From NCBI GenBank assembly GCA_949289345.1, contig CASENS010000088.1, positions 54,451-118,450 of the forward strand: a DNA stretch of 64,000 bases. Direction: 5' to 3'. Position numbers and translations under genes: made by a program. Under the pieces are notes generated by a model. The model did no database searches. It was not told the DNA's origin and saw only the letters and a program-made list of their open reading frames with translations. Below, piece by piece: positions 1,232 through 61,281 of the stretch; position 1 is the stretch's first letter; every line of letters starts with the position of its first letter. The stretch comes from an uncultured Bacteroides sp. GTDB lineage: Bacteria; Bacteroidota; Bacteroidia; Bacteroidales; Bacteroidaceae.

Positions 1232-1401
1232 CAGTCCGAAAAGTCCGGTTGTGAATGATTGATATAGCTGTAAACTTACTCACTTGGGCGTCTTGACTAT
1301 CATTGGTTATCCGCCCAAGTATTATTGGATACTTTGTTATTCATCCAACGATACTTTGCCGATTATCCTTGGATACTTTTGTAACCGCTTTCCCGGACTT
1401 A
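1232..1401 (-). repeat. 22-bp-period palindrome array, AAGTATC family copy 1
   Basis: Read on the minus strand, AAGTATC recurs exactly every 22 bp (units 1357-1378, 1335-1356 and 1313-1334). Each unit contains an imperfect palindrome, for example TATCC-AA-GGATA and AAGTAT-N6-ATACTT. The element is bordered by inverted sequences: AGTCCGAAAAGTCCGGTT at the left and AACCGCTTTCCCGGACTT at the right. Copies 2 and 3 are at 27.2 and 42.9 kb; copy 3 also shares the flank containing GATATAGCTG. It lies between convergent genes. Confidence 0.85.
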
Positions 1402-1419
1402 GGGGAAGAGCCATAAAAA

Positions 1420-1462
1420 ACACTCCTGCTCACTTCCTATTTAGCGAAGTCGGCAGGAGTGT
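1420..1462. terminator. Bidirectional hairpin between convergent genes
   Basis: The arms ACACTCCTGC (1420-1429) and GCAGGAGTGT (1453-1462) are a perfect 10-bp inverted repeat. An A-run precedes it and T-rich sequence follows, so it could act as an intrinsic terminator for the tricorn-type gene on + and for the M16 gene on -. Confidence 0.65.
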
Positions 1463-1497
1463 TTCTATATAAGCCGGAAGACTGTTCCGGACTTTAA

Positions 1498-1688
1498 GAA
1501 GCTGTTTTGAATTTCTACAAAAAGTTTTTCTTGGCTTGATGTATTCATTTTCGTGTGTGCTTTGGGTGATTTTTTGGTCCTTTCCGCTTCTGTTCTTCGT
1601 CAGATAGCCCGCTATCTTCCTCATCATAGAAGCGGAAATGCCTCAAAAACTCATCCCAAATCATCGCACGATAAATTCAAAACTGTTT
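1498..1688. repeat. Long imperfect palindrome (MITE-like or giant hairpin)
   Basis: About 190 bp folds back on itself. The outer arms are GTTTTGAATTT (1504-1514) and AAATTCAAAAC (1673-1683). A middle section pairs TTTGGGTGA with TCATCCCAAA. The inner arms TTTCCGCTTCT (1581-1591) and AGAAGCGGAAA (1628-1638) are perfect. The tip is AGATAGC-CC-GCTATCT (1602-1617). No coding potential is evident. It abuts the stop codon of the M16 gene, so it would lie in that transcript's 3' end. It may be a relic of a small non-autonomous mobile element. Confidence 0.7.
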
Positions 1689-4619
1689 CTAATATCCGAA
1701 GATGTCTTTCGTGGTCAGTTCCGTCACAGGGGCAATTTTCTTCAGCGACTCCATATCGAGGTCTTTCTTGTTGCCTAAGATACCATAATAATAAGTACGT
1801 CCCTTAACCCATTTCTGTTGGAAGTCAATCACGTCATTCAGCGTCATGTGCTGAACATCATTATACAGACGGATGCGGCTGTCTTCTGTCTCGCCCATAT
1901 CTTGTGCGTCGATGTAATCCCAAAGCACAGCCGATTTTGTAATGCGGTCGGTACGCAGGCGGGCTATCATTCCTTCTTTAGCCAGTTTGAAGGCGGCTTC
2001 AGATTGTGGCATGTTGTTGATAATGTCGTTGAACGTGTTGATGGCATCAAGCATCTTGTCGCTTTGCGTGGCAATTTGCGACACAAAATAATAGCTTTCG
2101 TCCTTATATCCCGGCTTATTATAGCCAGCCCAAGCTGAGTAGGCTAATCCGCGGCTTTCGCGCATTTCCTGGAATACAATGGAGTTCATACCCCCACCAA
2201 AGTATTCGTTGTACAGCTGGCGCGAAGGTTCAAGAGCAGTCTCGTATTTCTCTCCACGGTTGGAATACTGCGACAAATAAATGTTCTTGGCATCATAAGG
2301 AGCTAAGAAAATGCGGGTTTCTTTGGTTGGTTGCATTTCTATGTTACCTTCCGTGGGGACGTCCTTCAACGTAGCGGGTGTTTTGTGCTCTTTATCCAAG
2401 ACTGTCAGTAGCTCATCGCTGGTGCTGGGGCCATAGTACAAGATACGATGCTTGTAGCTGTTCAACTCATGGATGCGGTCTACCAGTTCCTGTGGGTTCA
2501 TGCCTTTCAGTTCAGCTTCGCTCAGCAAGGTATTGGCGGGATTCTTCGGGCCATAATATACGTAGTTCATCAAACGTGCGAAATTCTGCATCTGGTTCGA
2601 CTTGGCGTCCGCACGTTTTTTCAGTTGGTCAGCAACCAAATTGTCATAAGCTTCCTTGTTCACTTGCGCATCGGCCAACAGCTTTTCAAAGAGAGCCATG
2701 GCTTGAGGCATGTACTCGTTGAGGCCACTTAGTGTGACGTATGTGCGGCGGTTGCCCGGCGATACGTAGAAACTGCATGCCATGCGATAGAATTCGCTCT
2801 TCACCTGTTCAGGGGTCATGTCGCTGGTACCGAGATACTCCAAGTATTGGGCGGCGAGGCCAAGGGCTTTGTCTTGGTTGTTGCCCATGTCGAAAAGGTA
2901 AACCAATTCGAAAAGGTCATCGCTGTTATTCTGTTTATAAAGCACGGGCACACCTTTGCCGGTGGTGAGTTGCGAAAGGTCTTTGTTGTAGTCTAAGAAC
3001 ACCGGCTCAATAGGAGTCGCAGCCGCTGCACTGGCCTGCAAGTCTTTCAGGAAAGCGCTGGCCGTGTCGCGGTTCATGGCGATAGGCGTAATCTGCGGTT
3101 TGTCTATCTTCTTCTCGTTGGGGTCTTTGCCTTGCCGTTTGTAAATGACGGCATAATTGTCGTCTTTCAAGTATTGGTTGGCAAAGGCTACGATGTCTTC
3201 CTTGGTCAGTTTGGACATGCGGTCAAGCGAAGTTACTTCATCGGCCCAATTGCTGCCATTGACGAATGATTGTACAAACCAGTCGGCACGTCCGGCGTTG
3301 CTGCCTGTCTGGTAAAGCTGGTAGAGCTTGAAATTATTGATGTTGGCTTCCATCATCTTCTCGTCAAAGTCACCCTCGCGTAGTTTCTTTATTTCGCCCA
3401 GCAGGAGGTCTTTCACCTCGTCCAAAGTCTGTCCGGTTTTCGGGCGTGCCTGCATCAGCAGAATGCTGTAGTCAGACAACGGATAGACGAAACTGAAAGC
3501 CGACAATGTCTTTTGCTGTTGGGTCAAGTCGAGGTCAATCAATCCGGCCTGTCCGTTATACAGAATTTGCGAAATGATGTTCAGCGTTTCCAATTCCTTG
3601 CTGGCCGCTCCAGGGAAGCGCCATGCCAGCGTGATGTTTTCGGCTTCGAGGCCTAAGACTTCACGTTCGATGGGTGCCGTTATCGGCTCTTCCTTCGTTA
3701 CATTCAGCTTCGGTAAATTGGGATTGGGCTGCATGTCGCCGAAATATTTGTCAATGGTTGCAATCATCTGGTCGGGGTCAAAATCACCGCTGAGACAGAT
3801 GGCCATGTTGTTGGGCACATACCATTCTTTATAGTAGTTCTTAATGTTAGTGATGGACGGGTTCTTCAGATGTTCCTGTGTGCCCAGTACGGTCTGAGTG
3901 CCATAGGGATGATGGGAGAAAAGAGCGGAGAATACGTTTTCAATAACTTTGCGCGAGTCTTGCGTCAACGACATGTTCTTTTCCTCATATACAGTTTCTA
4001 GTTCAGTGTGGAAGCCACGAATGACACAGTTTTTGAAACGTTCCGCCTGAATACGTGCCCAGTTCTCCACTTCATTGCTGGGAATGTCTTCCGTATAGCA
4101 AGTTACGTCATAACTGGTGTAAGCGTTCGTTCCGTTGGCGCCGATGGCGGCCATCAGCTTGTCATATTCGTTGGGAATGGCATACTTCGATGCTTCGTAG
4201 GAAAGGCTGTCGATAACATGGTATATAGCTTTACGTTCGGCTTCGTCCGTAGTTTTGCGATATACCTCAAATTGTTGTTCAATCTGGTCAAGCAAAGGCT
4301 TCTCGGCTTCATAATTCTGGGTGCCGAAGTGGCTTGTACCTTTAAACATCAGGTGCTCGAAGTAGTGTGCCAGTCCGGTGGTTTCGGCCGGGTCATTCTT
4401 GCCGCCCACACGCACGGCAATATATGTCTGGATGCGTGGTTCGTCCTTGTTGACGGTCATGTACACTTTCAACCCGTTATCCAGGGTATAGATACGAGCC
4501 TGTAACGGGTCATTGGGAACAGTTTCGTAGTTGTACTTCGATGTTTGTGTACAACTACTTAGACTCAGCACTGCCAAAGTCAGCAGCGGCAAGCCAATTT
4601 TTCTGAATAATTGGTTCAT
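1689..4619 (-). CDS. M16 (insulinase/pitrilysin) family zinc peptidase, lipoprotein
   Basis: This is a large two-unit M16 metallopeptidase (about 976 aa) with the inverted zinc motif HYFEH in LAHYFEHLMFKGT near residue 75. Glutamates in the ETVYEEKN helix, about 70 residues on, are the usual third ligand region. The C-terminal half is the non-catalytic repeat (GGGMNSIVFQEMRESRGLAY). The start was set at 4619 because MNQLFRKIG begins a lipoprotein signal with lipobox LSLSSC (Cys about residue 23), and a -7 motif TATATTTG (minus strand of 4647-4654) sits just upstream. It is expected on a membrane facing the periplasm, degrading peptides. It appears monocistronic. Confidence 0.9.
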   Translation of the reverse strand: MNQLFRKIGLPLLTLAVLSLSSCTQTSKYNYETVPNDPLQARIYTLDNGLKVYMTVNKDEPRIQTYIAVRVGGKNDPAETTGLAHYFEHLMFKGTSHFGTQNYEAEKPLLDQIEQQFEVYRKTTDEAERKAIYHVIDSLSYEASKYAIPNEYDKLMAAIGANGTNAYTSYDVTCYTEDIPSNEVENWARIQAERFKNCVIRGFHTELETVYEEKNMSLTQDSRKVIENVFSALFSHHPYGTQTVLGTQEHLKNPSITNIKNYYKEWYVPNNMAICLSGDFDPDQMIATIDKYFGDMQPNPNLPKLNVTKEEPITAPIEREVLGLEAENITLAWRFPGAASKELETLNIISQILYNGQAGLIDLDLTQQQKTLSAFSFVYPLSDYSILLMQARPKTGQTLDEVKDLLLGEIKKLREGDFDEKMMEANINNFKLYQLYQTGSNAGRADWFVQSFVNGSNWADEVTSLDRMSKLTKEDIVAFANQYLKDDNYAVIYKRQGKDPNEKKIDKPQITPIAMNRDTASAFLKDLQASAAAATPIEPVFLDYNKDLSQLTTGKGVPVLYKQNNSDDLFELVYLFDMGNNQDKALGLAAQYLEYLGTSDMTPEQVKSEFYRMACSFYVSPGNRRTYVTLSGLNEYMPQAMALFEKLLADAQVNKEAYDNLVADQLKKRADAKSNQMQNFARLMNYVYYGPKNPANTLLSEAELKGMNPQELVDRIHELNSYKHRILYYGPSTSDELLTVLDKEHKTPATLKDVPTEGNIEMQPTKETRIFLAPYDAKNIYLSQYSNRGEKYETALEPSRQLYNEYFGGGMNSIVFQEMRESRGLAYSAWAGYNKPGYKDESYYFVSQIATQSDKMLDAINTFNDIINNMPQSEAAFKLAKEGMIARLRTDRITKSAVLWDYIDAQDMGETEDSRIRLYNDVQHMTLNDVIDFQQKWVKGRTYYYGILGNKKDLDMESLKKIAPVTELTTKDIFGY

Positions 4620-4751
4620 AATTAGAATAATTAGTGTTGTTGCCTGCAAATATATTTATTTTTTTCATACAATAGTCATTCTCCGCGCTCCATTTTTTAT
4701 CTCTTACGACAAATTTTCATCCCGAAAGCCTGATAAGTATAATCATTTTCA

Positions 4752-4759
4752 TACCTTTG
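4752..4759 (+). promoter_or_regulatory. -7 promoter element of prfB
   Basis: TACCTTTG matches the Bacteroidales -7 consensus TAnnTTTG. No clear -33 TTTG is seen at the right distance. Transcription would start near 4766, giving a leader of about 20 nt before the prfB ATG. Confidence 0.5.
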
Positions 4760-4784
4760 CAAACTAAACATAAAAATCCCTTTT

Positions 4785-5903
4785 ATGATAACTGTTGAAC
4801 AACTGAAAGATATTAAAGACCGTACCGAAGCATTGCATCGCTATTTGGACATCGACAGCAAGAAAGTCCAAGTAGAAGAGGAGCAGCTCCGTACGCAGGC
4901 ACCCGGTTTCTGGGACGACCAAAAAGCGGCCGAGGCGCAGATGAAAAAAGTAAAAAGTCTGCAACAATGGATTGCAGGCTATAACGAAGTCAAAACGCTG
5001 GCCGATGAACTGCAATTAGCTTTCGATTTCCACAAAGACGAGCTGGTGACTGAGGAGGAAGTAGACGAAGCTTATAAGAAAGCCTCCGAAGCCGTTGAAG
5101 CACTGGAACTGAAAAACATGCTGCGCGATGAAGCCGACCAGATGGACTGCGTGCTTAAAATAAACTCCGGGGCAGGCGGCACCGAAAGCCAAGACTGGGC
5201 CAGCATGCTGATGCGCATGTATCTGCGTTATGCGGAAACACACGGTTATAAAACTGCCATTGCCAACTTACAGGAAGGCGATGAGGCCGGCATCAAAACC
5301 TGTACCATTGAAATCAGTGGAGACTACGCCTACGGTTATCTGAAAGGTGAAAACGGTGTACACCGTCTGGTTCGTGTATCGCCCTACAACGCCCAAGGCA
5401 AGCGTATGACATCTTTTGCTTCTGTATTCGTCACTCCTTTGGTGGATGATACCATTGAAGTAAATATAGAGCCGGCACGCATCTCATGGGACACTTTCCG
5501 AAGCGGAGGTGCGGGTGGCCAGAACGTGAACAAAGTGGAGTCTGGCGTACGTTTGCGCTACCAATATAAAGACCCTTACACGGGTGAAGAAGAAGAAATT
5601 CTCATTGAGAACACCGAAACGCGCGACCAGCCCAAGAACCGTGAAAATGCCCTTCGACTCCTCCGTTCCATGCTCTACGATAAGGAAATGAAGCACCGAA
5701 TGGCGGAACAGGCCAAAATAGAAGCGGGTAAGAAAAAGATAGAATGGGGGTCACAAATACGCAGTTACGTTTTTGATGACCGTCGTGTGAAAGACCATCG
5801 TACCAACTACCAGACCAGTGACGTGAATGGGGTGATGGACGGTAAGATAGACGGCTTCGTCAAAGCCTATCTCATGGAGTTTGCCGGGCAAGGCGAAGCA
5901 TAA
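4785..5903 (+). CDS. prfB: Peptide chain release factor 2 (RF2)
   Basis: RF2 recognises UGA/UAA stop codons and triggers peptide release on the ribosome. The 372-aa product is full length. It has the peptidyl-hydrolase GGQ motif at about residues 244-246 (RSGGAGGQNVNKVESGVRL). The codon-recognition loop reads SPY (199-201, VRVSPYNAQGKR) where many RF2 proteins have SPF. Many bacterial prfB genes need a programmed +1 frameshift at an early UGA. Here the corresponding stretch (ALHRYLDIDSKK) is continuous, so that autoregulation is absent. It is monocistronic with its own -7 element upstream. Confidence 0.96.
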   Translation: MITVEQLKDIKDRTEALHRYLDIDSKKVQVEEEQLRTQAPGFWDDQKAAEAQMKKVKSLQQWIAGYNEVKTLADELQLAFDFHKDELVTEEEVDEAYKKASEAVEALELKNMLRDEADQMDCVLKINSGAGGTESQDWASMLMRMYLRYAETHGYKTAIANLQEGDEAGIKTCTIEISGDYAYGYLKGENGVHRLVRVSPYNAQGKRMTSFASVFVTPLVDDTIEVNIEPARISWDTFRSGGAGGQNVNKVESGVRLRYQYKDPYTGEEEEILIENTETRDQPKNRENALRLLRSMLYDKEMKHRMAEQAKIEAGKKKIEWGSQIRSYVFDDRRVKDHRTNYQTSDVNGVMDGKIDGFVKAYLMEFAGQGEA

Positions 5904-5913
5904 ATTGGGACAT

Positions 5914-5986
5914 GGAGGCACAAAGTCACAGAGATTTTATTTCATGGATTTGCAAATGTATTTTTTCACTGTGGCTTTTTGTCCCC
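5914..5986. repeat. Intergenic imperfect inverted repeat after prfB
   Basis: GGCACAAAGTCACAG (about 5917-5931) is an imperfect inverted partner of CTGTGGCTTTTTGTCC (about 5969-5984). The stem could terminate prfB, although it is not a compact GC-rich hairpin. Confidence 0.45.
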
Positions 5987-6050
5987 GAATTTTAGAATTG
6001 TCAAGACATTTCTATCATCCGGAAATGCGAATTCCTTAGAATGTAATGCG

Positions 6051-7040: not shown

Positions 7041-7071
7041 ACGGGCCGTTTTCTTCCCTTGTACATAACTG

Positions 7072-8580: not shown

Positions 8581-8728
8581 CTTTCTATAGATAGATTTGA
8601 TTTCATGCACAAAAGTACGCTTATTTCTTGTTTCCCTCTATTTTTTTCCCTATTTTTTTCTATCTTTACGCCTTGATTTGTGGTCATATTGCCACATGAA
8701 CAGATTATCATCATAGAATATTGGGCAT

Positions 8729-10512: not shown

Positions 10513-10516
10513 GACT

Positions 10517-11782: not shown

Positions 11783-11806
11783 GTTCAGAAAAAACGGATG
11801 GATAAA

Positions 11807-12043: not shown

Positions 12044-12095
12044 AACTTTAAGTTTTTAATTAATAAATTGAGTTTATTTCTTTATTTTTGCGTTG

Positions 12096-12127: not shown

Positions 12128-12148
12128 TATTTGAGGAATTAAATGCGT

Positions 12149-27054: not shown

Positions 27055-27200
27055 GCTTCTTCTTCTGAATGTTTTGGAAAGCAAAGATAGTGTTTTTACA
27101 CCATTCTCTGGTTTATAGACTTTATTTTTATGTCGGAAGCATATAAAAAACAGCAACTATAGGTAAATTCAGAAGCATTCCGGTCCTCCGCCGTTCTAAC

Positions 27201-27305
27201 CCGAAAACCCGGTCGCGGGAGTATCCAATATGACAGGGCAAAGTATCCTTGGATAAATGGTCAAGTATCCAATATTACTTGGTCAAGTATGCAATGATGC
27301 ATTTG
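27201..27305 (+). repeat. 22-bp-period palindrome array, AAGTATC family copy 2
   Basis: The heptamer (A/G)AGTATC (or AAGTATG) recurs at 27219, 27241, 27263 and 27285, exactly 22 bp apart. Units include palindromes such as TATCCTTGGATA. The left border CCGAAAACCCGGTCGC matches the left end of copy 3; no matching right border was found, so the copy may be truncated. It lies in the divergent region between the GT39-like gene and the DUF5672-like gene, flanked by their -7 elements. These elements and the array account for the 329-base gap. Confidence 0.85.
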
Positions 27306-27351
27306 TCATCAAATGTTTGAACAAATGTAATGCGTTTACCGTAATATCATC

Positions 27352-27359
27352 TATCTTTG
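27352..27359 (+). promoter_or_regulatory. -7 element of the DUF5672-like gene
   Basis: TATCTTTG fits TAnnTTTG. Transcription would start near 27366, which favours the ATG at 27383 over the one at 27371. No -33 element is evident. Confidence 0.5.
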
Positions 27360-27382
27360 TCCGCAAATGAATGATTGAGTTT

Positions 27383-36077: not shown

Positions 36078-36202
36078 CTGGTTGTTTTTCTTATAAAACC
36101 AGAAAGGTTTTCTGTCTCTTTCAGAAGACCTTTCTGTTTCTAACAGAAACCCTTTCTGCTACTACCGGAAAATGTTTCTGGTACGGGCAGAATAAAAACA
36201 GG
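36078..36202. repeat. 22-bp-period palindrome array, CAGAAA/TTTCTG family
   Basis: Four palindromes CAGAAA-N3-TTTCTG start at 36100, 36122, 36144 and 36166, exactly 22 bp apart, with 7-base spacers that differ. Units 2 and 4 have G at one arm position (CAGAAG and CGGAAA) opposite T, which keeps G-T wobble pairing. Degenerate units border the array: CTGGTT...AACCAG at 36078-36102 and CAGAATAAAAACAG at 36188. It lies between the convergent DUF6078-like gene and dnaX and fills most of their 248-base gap. Confidence 0.85.
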
Positions 36203-42441: not shown

Positions 42442-42665
42442 AAAAAATCCACACTCCACACCTCAATTCCACACCGTCTCCACACTTTGGAATACTTTAT
42501 TCCATCCGTTATTTGGCTGTATAACAGTTGTTTATATACGTGTTCATTTGTTTGGCACAACAATTGAGGGAATTATTGTAATTGTAGTATAACTTAAACC
42601 AAACTTAATGTATTAATCATAAAAGCAAGTGAAAAATAAACGTTAGTATTAGTAGTAGCCCTGTT

Positions 42666-42880
42666 TATGTTTGTTTGTGGAAGTCTGCCCGGTTAAGTTC
42701 TGAAAAGGGCTTGCCGGGAGACTTAAATACAAATGAGAAGACATAAAGCCCAATGCCTGTTTCAATTGTTTCCACAAACACATAGCATCTGCTCGAAGTC
42801 GCTGAACAACAGTAAGCCGCTAACAAGAAAAAGCCGTTCCCATCTTGTCTATTCTGGGGAACGGCTTTTTCTTGTTTATG
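42666..42880 (+). ncRNA. Candidate structured RNA of about 195-215 nt ending in a terminator hairpin
   Basis: A -7-like TATGTTTG lies at 42666-42673. Downstream, AAGTCT-G-CCCGG (42681-42692) pairs with CCGGG-AGACTT (42714-42724). GGGCTT in its loop (42707-42712) can pair with AAGCCC (42746-42751) as a pseudoknot. TGTTTGTGG (42672-42680) and CCACAAACA (42772-42780) enclose this, although if transcription starts near 42680 that 5' arm would be outside the RNA. The hairpin at 42823-42875 would end the transcript. Size is compatible with a 6S-like or other regulatory RNA, but I could not match a family. Small ORFs here look spurious. Confidence 0.42.
42823..42875. terminator. Strong bidirectional terminator hairpin
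   Basis: ACAAGAAAAAGCCGTTCC (42823-42840) and GGAACGGCTTTTTCTTGT (42858-42875) form a perfect 18-bp inverted repeat with a 17-base loop. The A/T-rich outer arms serve as a T-tract in both directions. Confidence 0.8.
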
Positions 42881-42891
42881 CTTCCTTTTAT

Positions 42892-43040
42892 TCCGGACAG
42901 TCCGAAAATCCGGTCGCAAAAGTATCCAAGAATAAACGCCCAAGTATCATTGGATAAACAGCGAAGTATCCAATAATACTTGGGCGACTTGGCAATAATC
43001 AGCTATATCTGTCAATAATTCACGACCGGCTTCTTCGGAT
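42892..43040 (+). repeat. 22-bp-period palindrome array, AAGTATC family copy 3
   Basis: AAGTATC starts at 42920, 42942 and 42964, exactly 22 bp apart. The ends are inverted partners: TCCGAAAATCCGGTCGC at the left (42901-42917) and ACGACCGGCTTCTTCGGA at the right (about 43022-43039). The first unit also holds CGGAC-A-GTCCG. Copy 1 shares both the AAGTATC units and the flank with GATATAGCTG (here in reverse). It lies between convergent genes, the NtrC-type regulator and ettA, after the candidate RNA terminator. Confidence 0.87.
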
Positions 43041-43049
43041 TGCCCCCCC

Positions 43050-44744
43050 TTATTCCATAAGCTTGCGATAGCGTACGCGTTTGGGTTCTTCACGTCCCAA
43101 ACGTTTGAGCTTATTCTCCTCGTATTCGGTATAAGACCCTTCAAAGAAGAACACGTTGGAGTCGCCTTCAAAGGCCAGAATGTGAGTGCAGATACGGTCA
43201 AGGAACCAGCGGTCGTGGCTGATGACTACAGCGCATCCGGCAAAGTCTTCCAAGCCTTCTTCGAGTGCACGTAAGGTGTTCACGTCGATGTCATTGGTAG
43301 GTTCATCCAGTAGCAGGACATTGCCTTCTTCCTTAAGGGCCATAGCCAAGTGGAGGCGATTGCGTTCACCACCGGAGAGAACACCGCAAAGTTTCTCTTG
43401 ATCGGCTCCGGAAAAATTGAAACGGGACAGATAAGCGCGGGCGTTAATATCCCGGCCACCCATGCGGATCAGTTCATTACCACCCGAAATTACTTGATAG
43501 ACGCTTTTGTTCGGATCTATATCTCTGTGCTGCTGGTCCACGTATGCCAATTTAACGGTTTCGCCGACCTCGAACTCTCCACTGTCGGGCTTTTCCAGTC
43601 CCATAATGAGACGGAACAACGTGGTTTTTCCCGCACCGTTTGGACCAATGATGCCCACAATGCCATTGGGCGGAAGCATGAAGTTAAGGTCATCGAAAAG
43701 CAGTTTGTCGCCGTATGCTTTAGCCACATGTTTGGCTTCAATGACTTTATTGCCGAGACGTGGTCCGTTGGGGATGAAGATTTCCAATTTTTCTTCCTTC
43801 TCTTTCACATCTTCGTTAAGCAATTTGTCGTAGGAGTTGAGACGGGCTTTACCCTTAGCTTGACGAGCTTTTGGCGCCATGCGCACCCATTCTAACTCGC
43901 GCTCTAAAGTCTTGCGGCGCTTGCTGGCCACCTTCTCTTCCATCTCCATACGCTTGGTCTTCTGTTCCAGCCAACTGGAGTAGTTTCCTTTCCAAGGGAT
44001 GCCTTCACCACGGTCAAGTTCCAAAATCCATCCCGCCACATGGTCAAGGAAGTAACGGTCATGCGTCACGGCAATCACCGTACCCTCATATTGTTGTAAA
44101 TGTTGTTCCAACCAGTCAATGGATTCGGCATCAAGGTGATTGGTAGGCTCGTCCAGCAAAAGTACATCCGGTTTCTGCAACAACAGGCGGCAAAGAGCTA
44201 CCCTGCGGCGTTCACCGCCCGAGAGATGTTCTACCGGCTGGTCTTCGGGAGGACAACGAAGCGCATCCATGGCTCGTTCCAGTTTGCTGTCAAGATTCCA
44301 AGCGTCGGTTGCGTCGATGATATCCTGTAGTTCAGCCTGGCGGGCAAAGAGCTGATTCATCTTTTCCTCATCTTCGTAATATTCGGGCAAACCGAATTTC
44401 TGATTGATTTCTTCATACTCGTTGAGCGTATCTACAATAGGCTGCACGCCTTCCATGACAACCTCTTTCACAGTTTTAGTCGGTTCCAAGTAGGGTTCCT
44501 GCGCCAGGTAACCTACCGAGTAACCGGGTGCAAACACCACTTCTCCTTGATAAGACTTATCCAATCCGGCAATGATTTTAAGTAGGGTTGACTTACCTGC
44601 TCCATTCAAACCAATGATGCCGATCTTAGCGCCATAAAAGAACGAAAGATAAATGTTCTTCAGCACCTGTTTGTTATTCTGCTGGATGGTCTTGTTTAGA
44701 CCTACCATAGAAAAAATAATCTTTTTGTCGTCTACTGTCGCCAT
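43050..44744 (-). CDS. ettA: ABC-F protein, energy-dependent translational throttle EttA
   Basis: EttA is a ribosome-bound ATPase that gates entry into elongation according to energy status; it has no membrane part. The 564-aa protein has two ATPase domains with Walker A GLNGAGKST and GPNGAGKTT. The signatures are LSGGERRRVALCRLL and LSGGERNRLHLAMAL, and the Walker B motifs are LLLDEPTNHLD and LLLDEPTNDID. The linker between them is the P-site tRNA interaction motif region. It ends in EEPKRVRYRKLME. The ATG overlaps the 3' end of a proC remnant, whose promoter (TACTTTTG, minus strand 44958-44965) may now drive it. Confidence 0.95.
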   Translation of the reverse strand: MATVDDKKIIFSMVGLNKTIQQNNKQVLKNIYLSFFYGAKIGIIGLNGAGKSTLLKIIAGLDKSYQGEVVFAPGYSVGYLAQEPYLEPTKTVKEVVMEGVQPIVDTLNEYEEINQKFGLPEYYEDEEKMNQLFARQAELQDIIDATDAWNLDSKLERAMDALRCPPEDQPVEHLSGGERRRVALCRLLLQKPDVLLLDEPTNHLDAESIDWLEQHLQQYEGTVIAVTHDRYFLDHVAGWILELDRGEGIPWKGNYSSWLEQKTKRMEMEEKVASKRRKTLERELEWVRMAPKARQAKGKARLNSYDKLLNEDVKEKEEKLEIFIPNGPRLGNKVIEAKHVAKAYGDKLLFDDLNFMLPPNGIVGIIGPNGAGKTTLFRLIMGLEKPDSGEFEVGETVKLAYVDQQHRDIDPNKSVYQVISGGNELIRMGGRDINARAYLSRFNFSGADQEKLCGVLSGGERNRLHLAMALKEEGNVLLLDEPTNDIDVNTLRALEEGLEDFAGCAVVISHDRWFLDRICTHILAFEGDSNVFFFEGSYTEYEENKLKRLGREEPKRVRYRKLME

Positions 44745-45276: not shown

Positions 45277-45386
45277 CAAGTCCCCTGCGGTACGGATTCA
45301 GTTCCATGCAGGGTGGAACTCAGTTCCCTGTTGTGCGGAACTTGGTTTCATGCTTGGCGAAACTTAGTTCCATACAGGGTGGAACT
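45277..45386. repeat. 22-bp-period palindrome array, AGTTCC/GGAACT family
   Basis: Four tandem 22-bp units have arms AGTTCC-N9-GGAACT (arm starts 45300, 45322, 45344 and 45366). Unit 3 reads GGTTTC-N9-GAAACT; the C-to-T and G-to-A changes compensate each other and the end pair becomes G-T. A fifth degenerate unit (AGTCC...GGATT, 45277-45298) precedes them and keeps pairing. It lies downstream of the DUF6078-like pseudogene and converges on the toxin gene. Confidence 0.88.
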
Positions 45387-45410
45387 TACCTCACCCGCCG
45401 ACTGATGTGG

Positions 45411-45451
45411 GAAGCCCCGCCGGGAGTGGTTGGCTCGGCCGGCGGGGCTTC
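45411..45451. terminator. GC-rich hairpin between the array and the toxin gene
   Basis: GAAGCCCCGCCGG (45411-45423) and CCGGCGGGGCTTC (45439-45451) are a perfect 13-bp inverted repeat with a 15-base loop. No T-run follows. It lies 24 bases beyond the toxin stop on the minus strand and could end the arginine/toxin transcript. Confidence 0.55.
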
Positions 45452-45474
45452 AAACGTTAAAGTAAGTCTTTCAG

Positions 45475-45786
45475 TTATTCCATTTGTTCCTTTAAATCAT
45501 CAGGATTGCGGCTGGTATGCCAAAAGAAGTGTATTCTTACAAAATCGTCTTTGACTGAATAGATGATTTTGTAAGGTTTCACCAACAGATATCTGTACTC
45601 ATGGGTGTCATCGGACAGTTCATGTTCAATACTTCCGGCGAAAGGATTTGACTTTAGGATAGATATGTTCTGCCGGATGGCCGCTTTGTATCTCAAAGCC
45701 GTATTGGGACCAAAATGCGCTTTGCCGTAATGGAATATCTCTTCAATTTGTTGGCGGGCTTGCCTGTCATAAACAATCTTTTTCAT
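45475..45786 (-). CDS. RelE/ParE family toxin
   Basis: The 103-aa protein has the compact ParE/RelE pattern: an N-terminal VYDRQARQQIEEIFHYGKAHFG helix hairpin, then RYLLVKPYKIIYSVKDDFVRIHFFWHTSRNPDDL, the typical beta-sheet ending in a histidine and arginine. RelE members cleave mRNA on the ribosome and ParE members poison gyrase; the sequence alone does not decide. Its ATG overlaps the antitoxin stop by one base (TAATG). The pair sits between argD and the decayed proC. Confidence 0.85.
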   Translation of the reverse strand: MKKIVYDRQARQQIEEIFHYGKAHFGPNTALRYKAAIRQNISILKSNPFAGSIEHELSDDTHEYRYLLVKPYKIIYSVKDDFVRIHFFWHTSRNPDDLKEQME

Positions 45787-46031
45787 TATCGCAGGTTGTT
45801 ATAGCAGTTTTCCATCTCCTCTTCGGTGAGGTGTTCCCCCCGCTCAAAGCGCTCTTCCGAGGCCTTCAGTAAGTCTTTGGCTTCGCTGAGGCTCATTTGT
45901 CCCGGCACCGTTTGCCTTGACTCGCGGGCGGATTCTATCAGTTTCTCGGCCAGCCAGGTTTTGTTGTCCGCGCTCAGTTGGAGCGATTGCAGGAAATCGA
46001 ACAGGGCATCTAATGATATACTCGCTTTCAT
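45786..46031 (-). CDS. Putative antitoxin partner
   Basis: The 81-aa acidic, helical protein (MKASISLDALFDFLQSLQLSADNKTWLAEKLIESA...) has no family I can name. It precedes and overlaps a RelE/ParE toxin gene by one base, the usual antitoxin-first arrangement. The C-terminal half (DLLKASEERFERGEHLTEEEMENCYNNL) is strongly charged and could wrap the toxin. Assignment rests on context. Confidence 0.7.
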   Translation of the reverse strand: MKASISLDALFDFLQSLQLSADNKTWLAEKLIESARESRQTVPGQMSLSEAKDLLKASEERFERGEHLTEEEMENCYNNLR

Positions 46032-46139
46032 CGTGTTGGGTATTATGGTTCAACAGGGGCAAAGGTACATATTTAAATGAGAACTTAAAAGATAAAAGGA
46101 TGAAGATTTCATCGTGTTTCTTCATCCTTTTATCAGGTG

Positions 46140-47267
46140 TCACAGCACCTTCGACAGCCGTTCGAGGAACTGGTCGGCCTCGTCCATCGTGAGGCACAGG
46201 GGCGGAAGCAGGCGGATGACGTTCGTGCCGCTGACGCCTGTAAAGACCTTCTGCTCGTGCAGCAGGCGCGAGCGCAGCTCCTTGATGGGACTGTCGAACT
46301 CGATGCCTATCATGAGGCCTTGGCCGCGCACTTCCTTCAGCCCGGGCAGTTTCTTCAGTTCGTCCAGCAGATAGTTGCCCACGATAGCGGCATTCTCCAT
46401 CAGTCCTTCGCCCTCGATGACGTCGAGCACGGCCAAGGCTGCCGCACAGGCCAGGTGGTTGCCGCCGAACGTGGTGCCCAGCTGTCCGTAGACGGGCGCG
46501 AACATCGGGCTGATGAGCACGCCGCCCATGGGGAAGCCGTTGCCGATGCCCTTGGCCACGGTGATGATGTCCGGACGGATGCCGGTGTATTGGTGGGCGA
46601 AGAAGCGGCCGCTGCGTCCGTATCCGCTCTGTATTTCGTCGAGGATGAGCACGGTGCCCGTTCGCGTACACTCTTCACGCAAGGCCTGCATGAATGACGG
46701 GTCGGGCACGCGGATGCCGCCAATGCCCTGTATGCCTTCGATGATGACGGCGCAGACATCGCCCTTGCGCAGTTCGGCCTGCATGGCTTCCGTGTCGTTC
46801 AGAGGCAGGTAAGTGGTATGCCCGTTGTCGTTGATGGGGGCGATGATTTTGGGGTTGTCCGTCACTTCCACCGCCAGCGAGGTGCGCCCGTGGAAGGCTT
46901 TGCCGAAGGAGACTACCCGTGTCCGTCCGTTATGGAACGAGGCCAGCTTCAGCGCGTTCTCGTTGGCTTCGGCGCCGCTGTTGATGAGGAAGAGCTGATA
47001 GTCGTCATAGCCGCAGACTTTGCCCAAGCGTTCGGCCAGCGTCCGCTGTAGTTTGTTGATGACGGAGTTGGAGTAGAACCCCAGCTGCGCCACTTGTTTA
47101 CTGATCATCTCCACATAATGCGGATGGCTGTGGCCGATGGAGATGACGGCGTGTCCGCCGTAAAGGTCGAGGTACTCGGTGCCTTGCTCGTCCCAGACGT
47201 GGCAGGCCTTACCCCGAACAATATTGATATCAAATAATGGATATACGTCAAATAGTTTCATAATCAT
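46140..47267 (-). CDS. argD: Acyl-ornithine aminotransferase, arginine synthesis
   Basis: This pyridoxal-phosphate aminotransferase converts acyl-glutamate semialdehyde to acyl-ornithine. It has NSGAEANENALKLA, the PLP-binding EIQSGYGRSG and the Lys in TVAKGIGNGFPMGG, plus TTFGGNHLACAAA. Length (375 aa) is normal. Bacteroides are known to make arginine through N-succinyl intermediates, so the natural substrate may be N-succinylornithine. It begins 6 bases after the argC stop; an in-frame ATG at 47261 is an alternative start. Confidence 0.95.
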   Translation of the reverse strand: MIMKLFDVYPLFDINIVRGKACHVWDEQGTEYLDLYGGHAVISIGHSHPHYVEMISKQVAQLGFYSNSVINKLQRTLAERLGKVCGYDDYQLFLINSGAEANENALKLASFHNGRTRVVSFGKAFHGRTSLAVEVTDNPKIIAPINDNGHTTYLPLNDTEAMQAELRKGDVCAVIIEGIQGIGGIRVPDPSFMQALREECTRTGTVLILDEIQSGYGRSGRFFAHQYTGIRPDIITVAKGIGNGFPMGGVLISPMFAPVYGQLGTTFGGNHLACAAALAVLDVIEGEGLMENAAIVGNYLLDELKKLPGLKEVRGQGLMIGIEFDSPIKELRSRLLHEQKVFTGVSGTNVIRLLPPLCLTMDEADQFLERLSKVL

Positions 47268-48242: not shown

Positions 48243-48249
48243 ATTGATG

Positions 48250-48322
48250 AAGAATTAAGAATGAAGAACGAAGAATGACGATTCTTCATCCGGAGGCGAA
48301 GCCGACATTCTTCATTCTACAT
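48250..48322. repeat. Intergenic inverted repeats of the GAAGAAT type
   Basis: Several copies of AAGAATGAAGAA-like sequence face TTCTTCATTCT-like sequence around an inner GAATGACGATTCTTC. A related hairpin is at 60095-60136 in the rhamnose operon. It could be an attenuator or processing site inside the arginine operon. Confidence 0.45.
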
Positions 48323-48543: not shown

Positions 48544-48550
48544 GGTTCTA

Positions 48551-50840: not shown

Positions 50841-50842
50841 CT

Positions 50843-52411: not shown

Positions 52412-52450
52412 GACGATAAACAAGAATAATTATCAAAATACCATAAAACT

Positions 52451-55210: not shown

Positions 55211-55224
55211 AGCAATGGGGTATC

Positions 55225-55239
55225 CCACTACCTTAGTGG
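55225..55239. repeat. Single palindrome matching the rhaT-rhaD array unit in reverse
   Basis: CCACTACCTTAGTGG, 15 bases after the GH106 stop, is the exact reverse complement of CCACTAAGGTAGTGG at 61210-61224 in the rhaT-rhaD array. No 22-bp neighbours are recognisable, so it may be an eroded array. Confidence 0.6.
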
Positions 55240-55335
55240 TTCTCGTTGCCCTTATTGACTAAACCTCGTAACGTTGGTGGAACATTCTCATCCGATGAGA
55301 GATTAGTTAACATATATAGAAGAAAAATATCAGCA

Positions 55336-57168: not shown

Positions 57169-57249
57169 TGATTTGAATTAGAAAAAAACACGACCGATTG
57201 TCATGAAACAATTAAAATTGTCGCTATATTTGTGTGGATTTCATATGCG

Positions 57250-57265
57250 ATGTCAAATCGGACAT
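57250..57265 (+). promoter_or_regulatory. Inverted repeat upstream of rhaB, possible activator site
   Basis: ATGTC-N6-GACAT lies about 43 bases upstream of the -7 element of rhaB. Position and symmetry suit an activator, but no consensus is known to me. Confidence 0.3.
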
Positions 57266-57307
57266 GTTAAATGCCAAAATCAATATATTTAAGAACTTAC
57301 AATCAGC

Positions 57308-57315
57308 TATCTTTG
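57308..57315 (+). promoter_or_regulatory. -7 element of the rha operon
   Basis: TATCTTTG matches TAnnTTTG and lies 29 bases before the rhaB ATG. No -33 TTTG is present at 19-21 bases, which fits a promoter needing an activator such as RhaR. Confidence 0.55.
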
Positions 57316-57344
57316 TAACATTATTAATATAAAAACTAATAGCC

Positions 57345-58805
57345 ATGGAACAATGTTTTTTTGCGGTTGATTTAGGCGCGACCAGTGGCCGTACCATTTT
57401 GGGGAGTTTTACTCCTGAAGGTTTGAAGATGGAAGAAATCAATCGTTTCTCCAATCATTTGATAGAAGTTACCGGACATTATTATTGGGACATCTATGAA
57501 TTGTATCGCAATATCATTGAAGGATTGAAACTTGCCTCCCGTAAAGAAGGGGTGGAAATTGTTTCTATCGGCATCGACACGTGGGGCGTGGATTTTGTCT
57601 GTGTAGGTAAGGATGGCCAGTTCTTACGCCAGCCTTATTCCTATCGTGATCCGCATACGGATGGCGCGCCGGAAGAGTTCTTCTCCCGTGTACCCCGCAA
57701 ACATGTGTATGAACTGACCGGTATCCAGGTGATGAATTTCAATTCCTTATTCCAACTCGATACAATGCGAAGAGCCGGTGATAGTGCCTTGGAGGCAGCC
57801 GATAAGTTCCTCTTTATTCCCGATGCGCTAAGCTACTTGCTAACGGGTGAGATGGTGACCGAATATACCATTGCCACTACAGCCCAGTTGGTAAACGCCG
57901 CCACACGTAAGTTTGAACCGGAATTATTGAACGCACTTGGATTAACGGAGCAGAACTTCGGACGTTTTGTATATCCGGGTGAAAAGATTGGGACGCTTTC
58001 TCCGGAAGTACAACGTATGACGGGGCTGAGTGCCATACCTGTCATAGCCGTAGCTGGACATGACACGGCATCTGCTGTAGCAGCCGTTCCTGCTCAAAAT
58101 CGGAACTTCGCATATTTGAGTAGCGGTACGTGGTCATTGATGGGAATCGAGGCCGATGCGCCTATCATCACGGAAGAGACGGAAGCTTTGAACTATACCA
58201 ATGAAGGAGGGGTAGACGGAACTATCCGTGTGTTGAAGAACATTTGTGGCATGTGGTTGCTGGAGCGTTGTCGTTTGCAATGGGGTGAGACTTCTTATCC
58301 GGAACTGATAGCCGAGGCCGAATCGTGTGAAGCTTTCCGTAGCCTGATTTATCCGGATGATGCGATGTTTGCCAATCCTTCCGACATGCAGCAGGCCATC
58401 CAGGATTATTGCCGGAAGACAAGACAACCTGTGCCGGAGACTCGTGGACAGATTGTGCGTTGTATTTTTGAAAGTCTGTCTTTGCGTTATCGTCAGGTGC
58501 TGGATGCTTTACGTTCTCTGTCTCCACGTCCGTTGGAAACCTTGCATGTCATAGGCGGAGGAAGTCGGAATGACCTTTTGAACCAGTGGACGGCCAATGC
58601 CGTGGGTATTCCGGTAGTGGCAGGTCCGTCTGAGGCAACGGCTATTGGTAATATTATGCTTCAGGCACTTTCAGCCGGTAAAGCGAAGGATATACCTTCC
58701 ATGCGTCGCCTGGTGGCACAATCCATTCCTTTGAAAACGTTCCAACCACAGGATGCCGACCTTTGGGCGGAAGCATATAACCAATTTGAACAAAAAACGA
58801 ACTAA
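57345..58805 (+). CDS. rhaB: Rhamnulokinase
   Basis: It phosphorylates L-rhamnulose at C1. The 486-aa FGGY-family kinase has the N-terminal phosphate motif AVDLGATSGRTILG, IGIDTWGVDFV with the catalytic Asp, HDTASAVAAVP, LSSGTWSLMGIE and HVIGGGSRNDLLNQWTANA. Bacteroides literature calls it rhaK. It is the first gene of the rha operon; rhaA follows after 26 bases. Upstream is a -7 element without a -33 match. Confidence 0.95.
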   Translation: MEQCFFAVDLGATSGRTILGSFTPEGLKMEEINRFSNHLIEVTGHYYWDIYELYRNIIEGLKLASRKEGVEIVSIGIDTWGVDFVCVGKDGQFLRQPYSYRDPHTDGAPEEFFSRVPRKHVYELTGIQVMNFNSLFQLDTMRRAGDSALEAADKFLFIPDALSYLLTGEMVTEYTIATTAQLVNAATRKFEPELLNALGLTEQNFGRFVYPGEKIGTLSPEVQRMTGLSAIPVIAVAGHDTASAVAAVPAQNRNFAYLSSGTWSLMGIEADAPIITEETEALNYTNEGGVDGTIRVLKNICGMWLLERCRLQWGETSYPELIAEAESCEAFRSLIYPDDAMFANPSDMQQAIQDYCRKTRQPVPETRGQIVRCIFESLSLRYRQVLDALRSLSPRPLETLHVIGGGSRNDLLNQWTANAVGIPVVAGPSEATAIGNIMLQALSAGKAKDIPSMRRLVAQSIPLKTFQPQDADLWAEAYNQFEQKTN

Positions 58806-58831
58806 TTATAAACTCTAAAAAATTCATCACC

Positions 58832-60088
58832 ATGAAAGAAGAATTGATTAACAAAGCGTATGCGATAGCCAAAGAACGTTATGCAGCTATCGGTGTAGAT
58901 ACAGACAAAGTATTGGAAACTCTTCAGGGTATCCAGATATCCATGCACTGCTGGCAGACCGACGACGTGGTGGGCTTTGAGCCGAAAGCAGGTGCTCTGT
59001 CGGGCGGAATACAGACTACAGGAAACTATCCGGGCAAGGCTCGCAACATCGACGAGGTGCGCAAGGACTTGGAATTTGCCATGTCGTTGCTGCCCGCCAA
59101 ACAACGTGTTAACCTCCACGAAATCTACGGAGACTTCCAGGGCAAGTTCATCGACCGCGACCAATGCTCCATTGACCAGTTCAAGAGTTGGATGGAGTGG
59201 GCTGATGCACAAGGCATCAAGTTGGACTTCAACTCTTCGTCTTTCTCTCATCCGAAAAGCGGTAACCTCTCCCTTTCCAATCCTGACAAAGGCATCCGCG
59301 ATTTCTGGATTGAACACACGAAACGCTGCCGTGAGATAGCCGAAGAAATCGGAAAGCATCAGGGAGACACTTGTTACATGAACCTGTGGGTGCATGATGG
59401 TAGCAAGGACATCACTCTGAACCGCATGAAGTACCGCGAATTGTTCAATGACTCGCTCGACCAGATATTCGCTGTGAAGTACGACCACATGAAAACCGGT
59501 TTGGAAAGCAAGGTGTTCGGCATCGGACTGGAGCACTATACGGTTGGCTCTAACGAGTTCTGCATGGGTTATGCTACCAAGCATCAGACTTACTTGACCA
59601 TTGATACCGGACACTATCATCCTACCGAAGTGGCTGCTGACAAGGTGTCGTCGGCATTGCTTTTTGTTCCGGGACTTATCCTGCACGTGAGCCGTCCCAT
59701 CCGTTGGGATTCCGACCACGTTACACTGATGGACGATGCCACTACCGAACTGTTCCAAGAACTGGTTCGTTGCGACGCACTCGACCGTACAGCCATTGCG
59801 CTCGACTATTTCGATGCCAGCATCAACCGCATCGGTGCTTATGTCATCGGTACGCGTGCCGCACAGAAGAGTCTGCTCCGCGCTTTGCTCGAACCGCTTG
59901 CAACTTTGCGTAAGTACGAAGCAAACGAACAAGGTTTCCAGCGTCTGGCTCTGCTGGAAGAGTGCAAGTCGCTGCCTTGGAATGCCGTATGGGATATGTT
60001 CTGTTTGAAGAACAATGTGCCGGTAGGTGAAGAATTCATTCCCGAGGTAGAGAAATATGAAGCAGAAGTAACCTCTAAGAGAAACTAA
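58832..60088 (+). CDS. rhaA: L-rhamnose isomerase
   Basis: It converts L-rhamnose to L-rhamnulose. The 418-aa protein has the family blocks IQISMHCWQTDDVVGFEP, GGIQTTGNYPGKARNIDEV split in two, LNLDFNSSSFSHPKSG-like LDFNSSSFSHPKSGNLSLS, WVHDGSKD, LTIDTGHYHPTEVAADKVSS in parts and HVSRPIRWDSDHV, which supply the metal-binding acidic and histidine residues. Named rhaI in some Bacteroides papers. A hairpin separates it from rhaT. Confidence 0.95.
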   Translation: MKEELINKAYAIAKERYAAIGVDTDKVLETLQGIQISMHCWQTDDVVGFEPKAGALSGGIQTTGNYPGKARNIDEVRKDLEFAMSLLPAKQRVNLHEIYGDFQGKFIDRDQCSIDQFKSWMEWADAQGIKLDFNSSSFSHPKSGNLSLSNPDKGIRDFWIEHTKRCREIAEEIGKHQGDTCYMNLWVHDGSKDITLNRMKYRELFNDSLDQIFAVKYDHMKTGLESKVFGIGLEHYTVGSNEFCMGYATKHQTYLTIDTGHYHPTEVAADKVSSALLFVPGLILHVSRPIRWDSDHVTLMDDATTELFQELVRCDALDRTAIALDYFDASINRIGAYVIGTRAAQKSLLRALLEPLATLRKYEANEQGFQRLALLEECKSLPWNAVWDMFCLKNNVPVGEEFIPEVEKYEAEVTSKRN

Positions 60089-60094
60089 GATTCG

Positions 60095-60136
60095 ATGAAG
60101 AATGAAGAATAGCTGTTTCTGTTCTTCATTCTTCAT
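60095..60136 (+). terminator. Hairpin between rhaA and rhaT
   Basis: ATGAAGAATGAAGAA (60095-60109) and TTCTTCATTCTTCAT (60122-60136) form a perfect 15-bp inverted repeat with a 12-base loop, followed by TTTTG. Inside the operon it may attenuate transcription or protect the upstream rhaB-rhaA message. Confidence 0.6.
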
Positions 60137-60151
60137 TTTGAAAATAGCGTT

Positions 60152-61186
60152 ATGGAAATTGTTATAGGACTGTTAATCATTGCTATCGGCGCGTTTTGCC
60201 AATCAAGTTGTTATGTGCCGATTAACAAGATAAAAGACTGGAGTTGGGAATCCTATTGGGTAATCCAAGGCGTGTTTGCCTGGTTGGTATTCCCGTTCTT
60301 AGGCGCATTGTTGGCTGTTCCGTCCGGATACAGTCTTTTCGGTTTGTTTGCCGATGCCCAGACATTGGACATTGCCATGACCATGCTGTTCGGTGTGTTG
60401 TGGGGAGTCGGCGGCTTGACGTTCGGTTTGTCCATGCGTTACTTGGGTGTGGCGTTGGGACAAAGTATTTCATTGGGTACTTGTGCCGGATTGGGTACTA
60501 TTCTGGCGCCGGTCATGCTGAACATCTTCTATCCGGAAGCTCATCATCTGGAGAAGCTGACGGCTTCTGTCATCATCGGTGTGGTGGTGACGCTCATCGG
60601 TATTGCCATCATTGGGGTGGCCGGTAACATGAAGTCGCAGAGCCTGAGCGAGGAGGAGAAGAAGGCTGCCGTGAAGGATTTCAACTTTCCGAAAGGTATC
60701 GCCATTGCTTTGTTGGCAGGCTTCATGAGCGGCTGCTTCAATGTGGGGCTGGAGTTTGGTTCGTCCATCCACTTCGAAGAGTCAGCCGAAATGTTCCGCA
60801 CGTTGCCTGCCACTTTCCTGGTGACGTTGGGAGGTTTTGTGACCAACGCCGTTTATTGCTTCTACCAGAACAGCAAGAACCATACGTGGGGCGACTATCG
60901 CAAGGGGAATGTGTGGGGCAACAACCTCGTGTTCTGCGCTTTGGCCGGTGTGCTTTGGTACAGCCAGTTCTTCGGTCTGGCACTGGGCAAAGGTTTTCTC
61001 ACCGATTCACCCGTATTGTTGACCTTCTCTTTCTGCATCCTGATGGCGCTCAATGTCGTGTTCTCGAACGTGTGGGGCATCATCCTGAAAGAGTGGAAAG
61101 GTTGCTCGCCCAAGACTGTTGTCGTATTGCTGCTTGGTCTGGTGGTACTTATCGTGTCGTCTTTCCTGCCTCAATTGTTGGGATAG
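60152..61186 (+). CDS. rhaT: L-rhamnose/proton symporter
   Basis: This inner-membrane permease (344 aa) imports L-rhamnose with a proton. It has about ten membrane helices in the DMT-like RhaT pattern. Conserved blocks are FCQSSCYVPINKIKDWSWESYW at the start (split by the first helix), LFGVLWGVGGLTFGLSMRYLG and GFMSGCFNVGLEFG. Called rhaP in some Bacteroides papers. It lies 63 bases after rhaA; a palindrome array separates it from rhaD. Confidence 0.93.
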   Translation: MEIVIGLLIIAIGAFCQSSCYVPINKIKDWSWESYWVIQGVFAWLVFPFLGALLAVPSGYSLFGLFADAQTLDIAMTMLFGVLWGVGGLTFGLSMRYLGVALGQSISLGTCAGLGTILAPVMLNIFYPEAHHLEKLTASVIIGVVVTLIGIAIIGVAGNMKSQSLSEEEKKAAVKDFNFPKGIAIALLAGFMSGCFNVGLEFGSSIHFEESAEMFRTLPATFLVTLGGFVTNAVYCFYQNSKNHTWGDYRKGNVWGNNLVFCALAGVLWYSQFFGLALGKGFLTDSPVLLTFSFCILMALNVVFSNVWGIILKEWKGCSPKTVVVLLLGLVVLIVSSFLPQLLG

Positions 61187-61193
61187 ACATCCG

Positions 61194-61281
61194 CATTAGT
61201 GGGTCAAAGCCACTAAGGTAGTGGGTCGGACCGACCCGCTCTGGTCGAGGTAGTCGACCAACTCTAGTCGGGTGAGCCGAC
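61194..61281. repeat. 22-bp-period palindrome array inside the rha operon, unit-specific arms
   Basis: Four consecutive 22-bp units (61194, 61216, 61238 and 61260) each hold a different palindrome: TTAGTGG-N7-CCACTAA, GGGTCGG-A-CCGACCC, GGTCGA-N5-TCGACC and GTCGG-N5-CCGAC. The arms differ but stay complementary within each unit. It occupies most of the 140-base gap between rhaT and rhaD. Confidence 0.82.

Follow-up and report, generated by a model that had tools for sequence, protein, structure and literature searches.

What are the rows of short palindromes that stand between the genes of an uncultured Bacteroides sp., and what holds their layout constant? The window analysed here, 64,000 nucleotides of contig CASENS010000088.1 (positions 54,451 to 118,450; assembly GCA_949289345.1), contains six such arrays, at 1232-1401, 27201-27305, 36078-36202, 42892-43040, 45277-45386 and 61194-61281. 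The original prediction, made from the letters alone, was that the six share a 22-bp period and in-phase symmetry and differ in sequence, that selection acts on their structure as DNA or RNA, and that no described element follows this rule. As an observation this is partly confirmed, and as an interpretation it is partly supported. Arrays defined by geometry are real, abundant and private to their lineage. We tentatively read them, with something approaching an even chance of being right, as multi-site dyad platforms for lineage-private dimeric DNA-binding proteins, spread partly (perhaps largely) inside miniature inverted-repeat transposable elements (MITEs).

A 22-bp rule across sequence families

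The sequence-free scan scored dyad symmetry at every centre and required three successive centres at a period P between 14 and 40 bp. Applied to 461 kb of this genome (the window together with 20 further stretches totalling 397 kb), it returned 13 in-phase clusters with a period of 22 bp and 6 with 33 bp, against 0-1 for each remaining period; in three shuffled sets the 22-bp clusters numbered 1, 0 and 0. The extended sample of 2.035 Mb combined 861 kb of this genome with 1.17 Mb from eight sister genomes. These were chosen for carrying the AAGTATC element described below (family 1), which nine others among 119 genomes of the genus have, eight of the nine being sampled. Here 37 clusters fell at 22 bp, 7 at 23 bp and 13 at 33 bp, with no more than three at any other period; the neighbouring periods of 21 and 24 bp had two and one. 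A single shuffle of this sample, tested at 21-24 bp only, yielded 0, 0, 0 and 2 clusters. The 33-bp peak is a harmonic (1.5 x 22). One cluster, L122:222, is by eye probably a tRNA gene and is retained in the counts. Equal numbers of runs in shuffled sequence, or a freely varying period, had been named beforehand as evidence against the rule; neither was seen, and 23 bp is only a minor companion.

The same period emerges when symmetry is ignored. Tandem Repeats Finder assigned period 22 to 115 of 283 rows in the clade (56 per Mb; rows may overlap one another), but in a 378-kb sample from 12 other Bacteroidales genomes to 3 of 34 rows (8 per Mb). After 22 bp, the clade's most frequent periods were 21 bp, with 25 rows, then 7 bp with 23 and 23 bp with 20. 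Merging the detections of both methods gave 110 arrays, which BLAST groups into 51 families, 35 of them with a single locus and the largest, AAGTATC, with 17 members. Thus, as predicted, period and symmetry recur where sequence does not. Judged by array length, 77 of the 110 hold three or four units, 13 hold two, 13 hold five and 7 hold six or more. In some arrays, for example L215:9533-9597, two different palindromes, each 22 bp long, alternate. Among same-genus outsiders, where the sequence-free scan covered 120 kb (G059 and G165), one period-22 array was reported by Tandem Repeats Finder (L090), so confinement of the arrays to this clade has been weakly tested.

All six arrays noted in the window are present, each outside called genes (boundaries here and below come from our own hexamer model on draft assemblies, not from an annotation). 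Identity at lag 22 lies between 0.39 and 0.64 in the arrays at 1232, 27201, 36078, 42892 and 45277. In each it is the highest of lags 15-30 and is matched by 0 of 200 dinucleotide shuffles. The sixth, at 61194, departs from the predicted period: its best lag is 23 (0.45), lag 22 scores 0.36 and is reached by 10 of 200 shuffles, and its period is mixed 22/23. Symmetry in phase with 22 bp is strong at 36078 (dyad score 0.92) and 45277 (0.87) and moderate at 27201 (0.72), 22 being the best of periods 18-26 in all three. It is weak and not at the best period at 1232 (0.57; 0.58 at 24 bp), 42892 (0.50; 0.57 at 26 bp) and 61194 (0.67; 0.83 at 24 bp), so that 22 bp is the best dyad period in half of the window's arrays.

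Motifs private to a species

Genomes differ in their dominant motif, which is GATATC in G294, ACGCGT in G274 and the AAGTATC element in the genome of the window. Nine sampled arrays of G294 share GATATC at 22-bp steps between differing spacers. The flanks of two of these arrays agree over their whole length, those of two more partly by eye, and the others not by eye. Across whole genomes, the pair GATATC-N16-GATATC occurs 297 times in G294, 16 times in G263, twice in G311, once in G216 and is missing from the six remaining clade genomes; in eight outsiders of the same genus it numbers 0-5. The reversed pattern, used as a control, is absent from G294 and G263 and reaches 18 elsewhere, so single-digit counts of the pair mean nothing. 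ACGCGT-N16-ACGCGT is found 161 times in G274, once in G310 and nowhere in the 16 remaining genomes; its reversed control is absent from G274 and reaches 10 elsewhere. By our estimate, twelve fixed bases should occur by chance about 0.2 times per 3 Mb.

GATATC also forms chains. At the 12 G294 loci where it does so, four exact copies stand at nine and three at three. Around 44 unique units the flanks mirror one another: C at -4 (41 units) faces G at +9 (39), G at -3 (39) faces C at +8 (34), and G at -7 (32) faces C at +12 (38). The units were phased on the hexamer, hence its own conservation is no evidence.

Carriage inside MITE-like elements

The main rival explanation, which we regard as a genuine possibility while doubting it on balance, is that each array is a minisatellite inside one of many MITE families, spread by transposases acting on the terminal repeats, the 22-bp units themselves being functionless. 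The window itself gives this some weight. Its arrays at 1232, 27201 and 42892 are copies of one dispersed MITE-like element of about 170 bp, and to that extent the predicted difference in sequence between the window's arrays does not hold. A full copy consists of terminal inverted repeats enclosing four units and then a tail; the AAGTATC unit is an imperfect dyad with a consensus read as AAGTATCNNNNGATACTT plus about 4 bp. The copy at 1231..1399 on the minus strand (about 169 bp; nhmmer L022:1420-1588, model positions 1-169 of 170, with own-genome BLAST) shows this layout from one terminal inverted repeat to the other, with four AAGTATC-type units of about 22 bp. The copy at 27200..27363 on the plus strand contains the array at 27201-27305 and lies, by our gene calls, in a divergent (5'-5') gap; the nhmmer match (model positions 3-154) stops short of its right end. 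The third, at 42895..43049 on the plus strand (nhmmer; sister-genome BLAST), has a shortened tail.

Family 1 is a mobile, MITE-like element, because the 42892 site is empty in two sister species: the flank matches lie 26 bp apart in G310 vs 178 bp here, and 4 bp apart in G259 vs 171 bp. A candidate 7-bp target duplication, TTATTCC, is seen by eye at 42888-42894 and 43050-43056. An empty site together with a candidate target duplication was found for family 1 at 42892 only, and no clean target duplication is seen by eye at the other family 1 copies. BLAST with the 42892 copy found at least 59 matches in the 3.44-Mb draft genome, short and reverse partial ones included, with 40 of 107 candidates scored. 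Iterated nhmmer collected 88 distinct family 1 sequences in the sampled DNA of this genome. They occupy 29 places in 861 kb, or about 115 per genome by extrapolation. The array is covered at all 29; the left end (model position 11 or below) survives at 24, the right end (161 or beyond) at 12, and both ends at 11, which leaves the case for arrays outlasting their ends weak.

Other arrays travel in the same way. Two GATATC arrays of G294 sit inside 167-bp elements with perfect 10-bp inverted ends, matching the AAGTATC element in size and layout and differing in their ends. Family-1-type end pairs were found ten times in the sampled DNA, 158-171 bp apart in eight cases and 158-196 bp in nine. The tenth pair, in G303, consists of family-1-like terminal repeats 2788 bp apart (L131:3957-6744), possibly an autonomous relative or possibly a chance pair.

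Among arrays of all families, a 12-bp inverted repeat flanks 7 of 105 (2.7 expected), in a test that misses most decayed ends and flags 2 of 16 family 1 arrays. Carriage of arrays by MITEs may nevertheless be common, because that flank test is insensitive and both ends survive at 11 of the 29 family 1 places. Shared flanks as a universal element end found no support: no 7-mer is common to more than 6 of the 16 families in the flanks of 33 own-genome arrays outside family 1.

There is a precedent in the same order. BrickBuilt, a MITE of Porphyromonas gingivalis, has 23-nt tandem repeats with a leader and a tail and is present in 19 copies in ATCC 33277 (PMC4596501). The same source cites direct repeats of 22 and 23 nt for strain W83, and describes MITE464/PgRS as having nearly the ends of BrickBuilt around other repeats (41 nt). 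Going by the portions of PMC4596501 available to us, BrickBuilt is the nearest published element that we found. Like the arrays here, it is intergenic, belongs to the Bacteroidales and carries repeats of nearly equal length inside a MITE. Unlike them, it is one sequence family with 1 to 22.8 repeats, and those portions give no 22-bp rule across many families. The comparison is by description: stem loops are predicted for BrickBuilt and palindromes are unmentioned in the main text of PMC4596501. Its terminal inverted repeats, of the GAGACCTTTGCA type, differ by eye from the family 1 ends. A mere passenger repeat should lack a fixed period across unrelated families, covarying dyads and a motif that is kept among differing spacers; these three features weigh against the MITE-passenger explanation.

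Dyad symmetry and the duplex

Of the arrays, 66 were found as tandem repeats only. Their mean best dyad score of 0.794 falls to 0.688 when the 22 columns are permuted; in 26 of the 66, symmetry reaches p<=0.05 against column-permuted copies, about 3 being expected. Dyad symmetry is thus no by-product of tandem repetition. A cruder and weaker test on consensus units points in the same direction (mean 6.57 paired positions vs 5.51 shuffled; values beyond the 95th percentile in 26% of 101 rows). Symmetry is common, not universal.

The paired positions also change together. At variable columns, Watson-Crick matches account for 67 of 84 innermost pairings inside one unit vs 250 of 412 when the partner is taken from another unit; at distances 3-10 the counts are 475 of 606 vs 1269 of 2012. 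Only columns that were already mostly paired had been selected; this favours same-unit pairing, though at all distances.

These data bear on a purely mutational origin, in which slippage or template switching at small hairpins, with a built-in preference for 22 bp, would generate the arrays without selection. Such a process would account for units that are homogenised inside a locus and differ between loci, as in the G274 arrays, for the single-locus status of 35 of the 51 families, and for the differing unit number at two AGTTCC loci with shared flanks. We consider it improbable. The period is sharp (21 bp: 2; 22 bp: 37; 23 bp: 7; 24 bp: 1), one motif occupies many loci with different spacers inside a species, and the GATATC chains consist of three or four exact motifs. 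Furthermore, copying across a hairpin loop cannot yield covariation of the innermost pair.

It had also been suggested that each unit acts as a small RNA hairpin; in a transcript's 3' region this could serve termination, stability or RNA-protein binding. The units can be drawn as hairpins with arms of 6-7 bp, and arrays are somewhat enriched in convergent gaps. RNA stems are expected to tolerate G.U and not A.C, and the innermost pair is unable to form in an RNA hairpin or a cruciform. When 48 co-directional arrays are turned to the sense strand, stem mismatches number 31 G.T vs 27 A.C (by array, 13 are richer in G.T, 9 in A.C and 26 tie), so wobble-tolerant stems on the transcribed strand are not seen in this set. 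A per-unit count on the arbitrary plus strand (68 G.T vs 36 A.C) was set aside, long arrays repeating one mismatch. Rfam gave no match at the gathering threshold within the window. Because there is no clear G.U preference, the innermost pairs covary, and the centres (GATATC and ACGCGT) are palindromes themselves, a property not required of a loop, the reader is probably a symmetric one acting on duplex DNA. The RNA explanation is accordingly very unlikely.

Comparison with known repeat systems

Repetitive extragenic palindromic (REP) units measure 20-40 bp, fall into two large tag families (GTAG and CGTC) according to the available portions of PMC3733652, and in many cases are associated with Y1 transposases. 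Their assemblies, bacterial interspersed mosaic elements (BIMEs), had been called loosely similar to the arrays. That the arrays are REP/BIME elements mobilised by a Y1 (REP-associated tyrosine, RAYT) transposase of the atypical Bacteroidetes subclass 2.6 is scarcely credible: both are high-copy intergenic palindromes with lineage-private sequences, and subclass 2.6 genes have atypical structures on their flanks that recur at other places in the genome (PMC6006769, as far as available), but the arrays keep to a period of 22 bp and comprise many families side by side, and PF01797 (Y1) has no match in the window's genome or in eight of nine sisters, 9 of 10 clade genomes in all, in assemblies that are 74-92% complete and may lack the gene. 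The similarity therefore stands as a likeness, and an identity with REP/RAYT systems is unsupported.

Helically phased tandem sites, about 11 or 22 bp apart and with a sequence specific to each system, are a feature of plasmid iterons and partition-site arrays. Such sites have a single location, an origin or a centromere, next to a rep or par gene; the arrays here are scattered over chromosomes and adjoin ordinary genes. A likeness to the iteron and partition systems comes from two viral contigs, L278 (5115-5164) and L289 (7986-8035), in which GATATC arrays, mostly with 11-bp steps, lie just upstream of a ParA-like open reading frame (Pfam AAA_31, MipZ, CbiA). Several other viral contigs have GATATC at 11-bp steps. 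The arrays of L278 and L289 are possibly partition sites.

Carriage of the chromosomal arrays by phages or plasmids was considered and set aside. Neither the TTTCTG pattern nor the family 1 core has a match in viral contigs, and by BLAST family 1 is absent from phages and plasmids and TTTCTG from plasmids. The triple GATATC pattern matches 19 viral stretches, which by eye are largely 11-bp or other tandem types in unrelated DNA.

We found no description of the whole rule in titles and opening abstract lines from the literature on Bacteroidales repeats, MITEs, RAYT and BrickBuilt, a mainly open-access set that leaves absence unproven; nothing similar appears in the available portions of PMC3733652, PMC10969869, PMC4524435 and PMC5771137. 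The claim that no element of this kind had been described holds in that sense, and is qualified by the 23-nt tandem repeats of BrickBuilt. None of the known families considered fits the class as a whole; family 1 by itself is an ordinary new MITE-like element.

Genomic placement

Only 6 of the 110 arrays lie in called genes and 8 at stretch edges; the remaining 96 are in intergenic gaps. Convergent gaps hold 22 of these (14.5 expected from gap length), co-directional gaps 58 (57.9) and divergent gaps 16 (23.6). For the 93 arrays outside family 1, the 88 nearest genes span 209 Pfam families, none of which occurs in more than 3 genes; these neighbours give no sign of an associated gene family. 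Neither a Rep nor a ParA/ParB family is among the 25 commonest of the 209.

The TTTCTG array of the window lies 3' of dnaX (Pfam). By eye, an array of other sequence occupies the dnaX 3' end in four of seven readable sisters: G310 and G259 carry AGTCCT units (G259 two of them, at a distance of about 400 bp), G294 has GATATC units, and in G234 a family-1-like end precedes another type of 22-bp unit. None is present there in G274, G263 and G303; the comparison left out G216, where the contig ends, and G311. This is no more than suggestive of a hot spot or a function at the dnaX 3' end.

The remaining window arrays and their surroundings

The TTTCTG array (family 2, 36086..36180, no strand assigned) has units TTTCTG-N7-CAGAAA-N3 with a 22-bp period, a dyad score of 17 of 21, support from Tandem Repeats Finder, and a longer hairpin-like left edge from about 36070. 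It has nine relatives in its own genome at E <1e-7, one place being counted twice (both strands). Family 3 (45298..45408, no strand assigned; Tandem Repeats Finder, dyad scan, BLAST) has units AGTTCC-N9-GGAACT-N1 and one own-genome relative, the second locus, which shares its flanks and holds fewer units. The family 4 array (61197..61281, no strand assigned), of TAGTG and GGTCGAC types with the mixed 22/23 period, lies between a rhaT-like gene and an aldolase-II gene (Pfam) and has weak own-genome matches only.

To the right of the 45277 array, 45413-45526 and 45794-46400 are 99% identical to G259:C120, other matches to G259 being at 74-83%; these pieces were possibly transferred recently. The non-coding stretch at 42480-42885, after a sigma-54 response-regulator gene (Pfam), has the core ...CCCTGTTTATGTTTGTTTGTGG... 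and a strong terminator-like end, both recurring by eye in several sister species. It is a candidate small RNA; Rfam on the non-coding stretch before 42892 gave three weak matches (E 0.016-0.082), all far below gathering scores. Two 7-bp tandem repeats (ATGAAGA and its complement) lie at 48247-48278 and 60095-60137. Elsewhere in the clade sample, a further high-copy repeat stands between the arrays of L066 (4750-4945), with many matches at 73-90% identity, chiefly in G234 and G310.

A proposed platform for dimeric proteins

Under the reading that we tentatively prefer, an array would be a row of usually three to five dyad sites in duplex DNA, 22 bp or about two helical turns apart. Since 22 bp is close to two turns, a homodimeric DNA-binding protein could bind one site after another from the same side of the helix. 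Its recognition sequence would differ by lineage, leaving geometry alone common across families, and the many minor motifs would resemble older or rarer systems. Some arrays, the AAGTATC ones and two or more with GATATC, travel in MITE-like elements of about 170 bp. A role in architecture or in blocking transcription would fit better than promoter regulation, because the arrays are intergenic and somewhat rarer than expected in divergent (promoter) gaps, with an excess in convergent gaps.

Several points weigh against the protein-platform reading. About 50 specificities in one clade are many for one protein family. The nearest genes are ordinary and point to no reader protein. The array of family 1 could be the passenger of a mobile element. 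An array near carB (Pfam) is missing there in all seven sisters read, where the neighbouring genes are often different, and the 31-kb sample of G234 contained no arrays. Symmetry at p<=0.05 is not reached in 40 of the 66 tandem-only arrays, and even the GATATC unit is incompletely symmetric (at +7, 19 of the 44 units have C and 16 have G). The sense strand, finally, leans slightly towards G.T mismatches.

A bolder version, which we hold with more hesitation, is that the arrays form a geometry-defined class of chromosomal element read by a fast-evolving family of dimeric proteins, a private motif being multiplied to about 100 loci per species and later replaced. Such turnover of private motifs would be analogous to that of coevolving centromere or hotspot-binding systems.

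A scan for period and dyad catches elements that a similarity-based repeat search misses, because 35 of the 51 families have a single locus in the sample. What it brings out is a rule that does not depend on sequence: dozens of unrelated families in one clade consist of intergenic dyads at 22-bp steps, usually in three to five units, and the dominant motif is private or nearly private to a species. The reader protein should be directly findable, a motif pair present 297 times in one genome being a ready-made bait. Either a new layer of Bacteroides chromosome organisation or a new means of spreading and renewing non-coding repeats would come to light.

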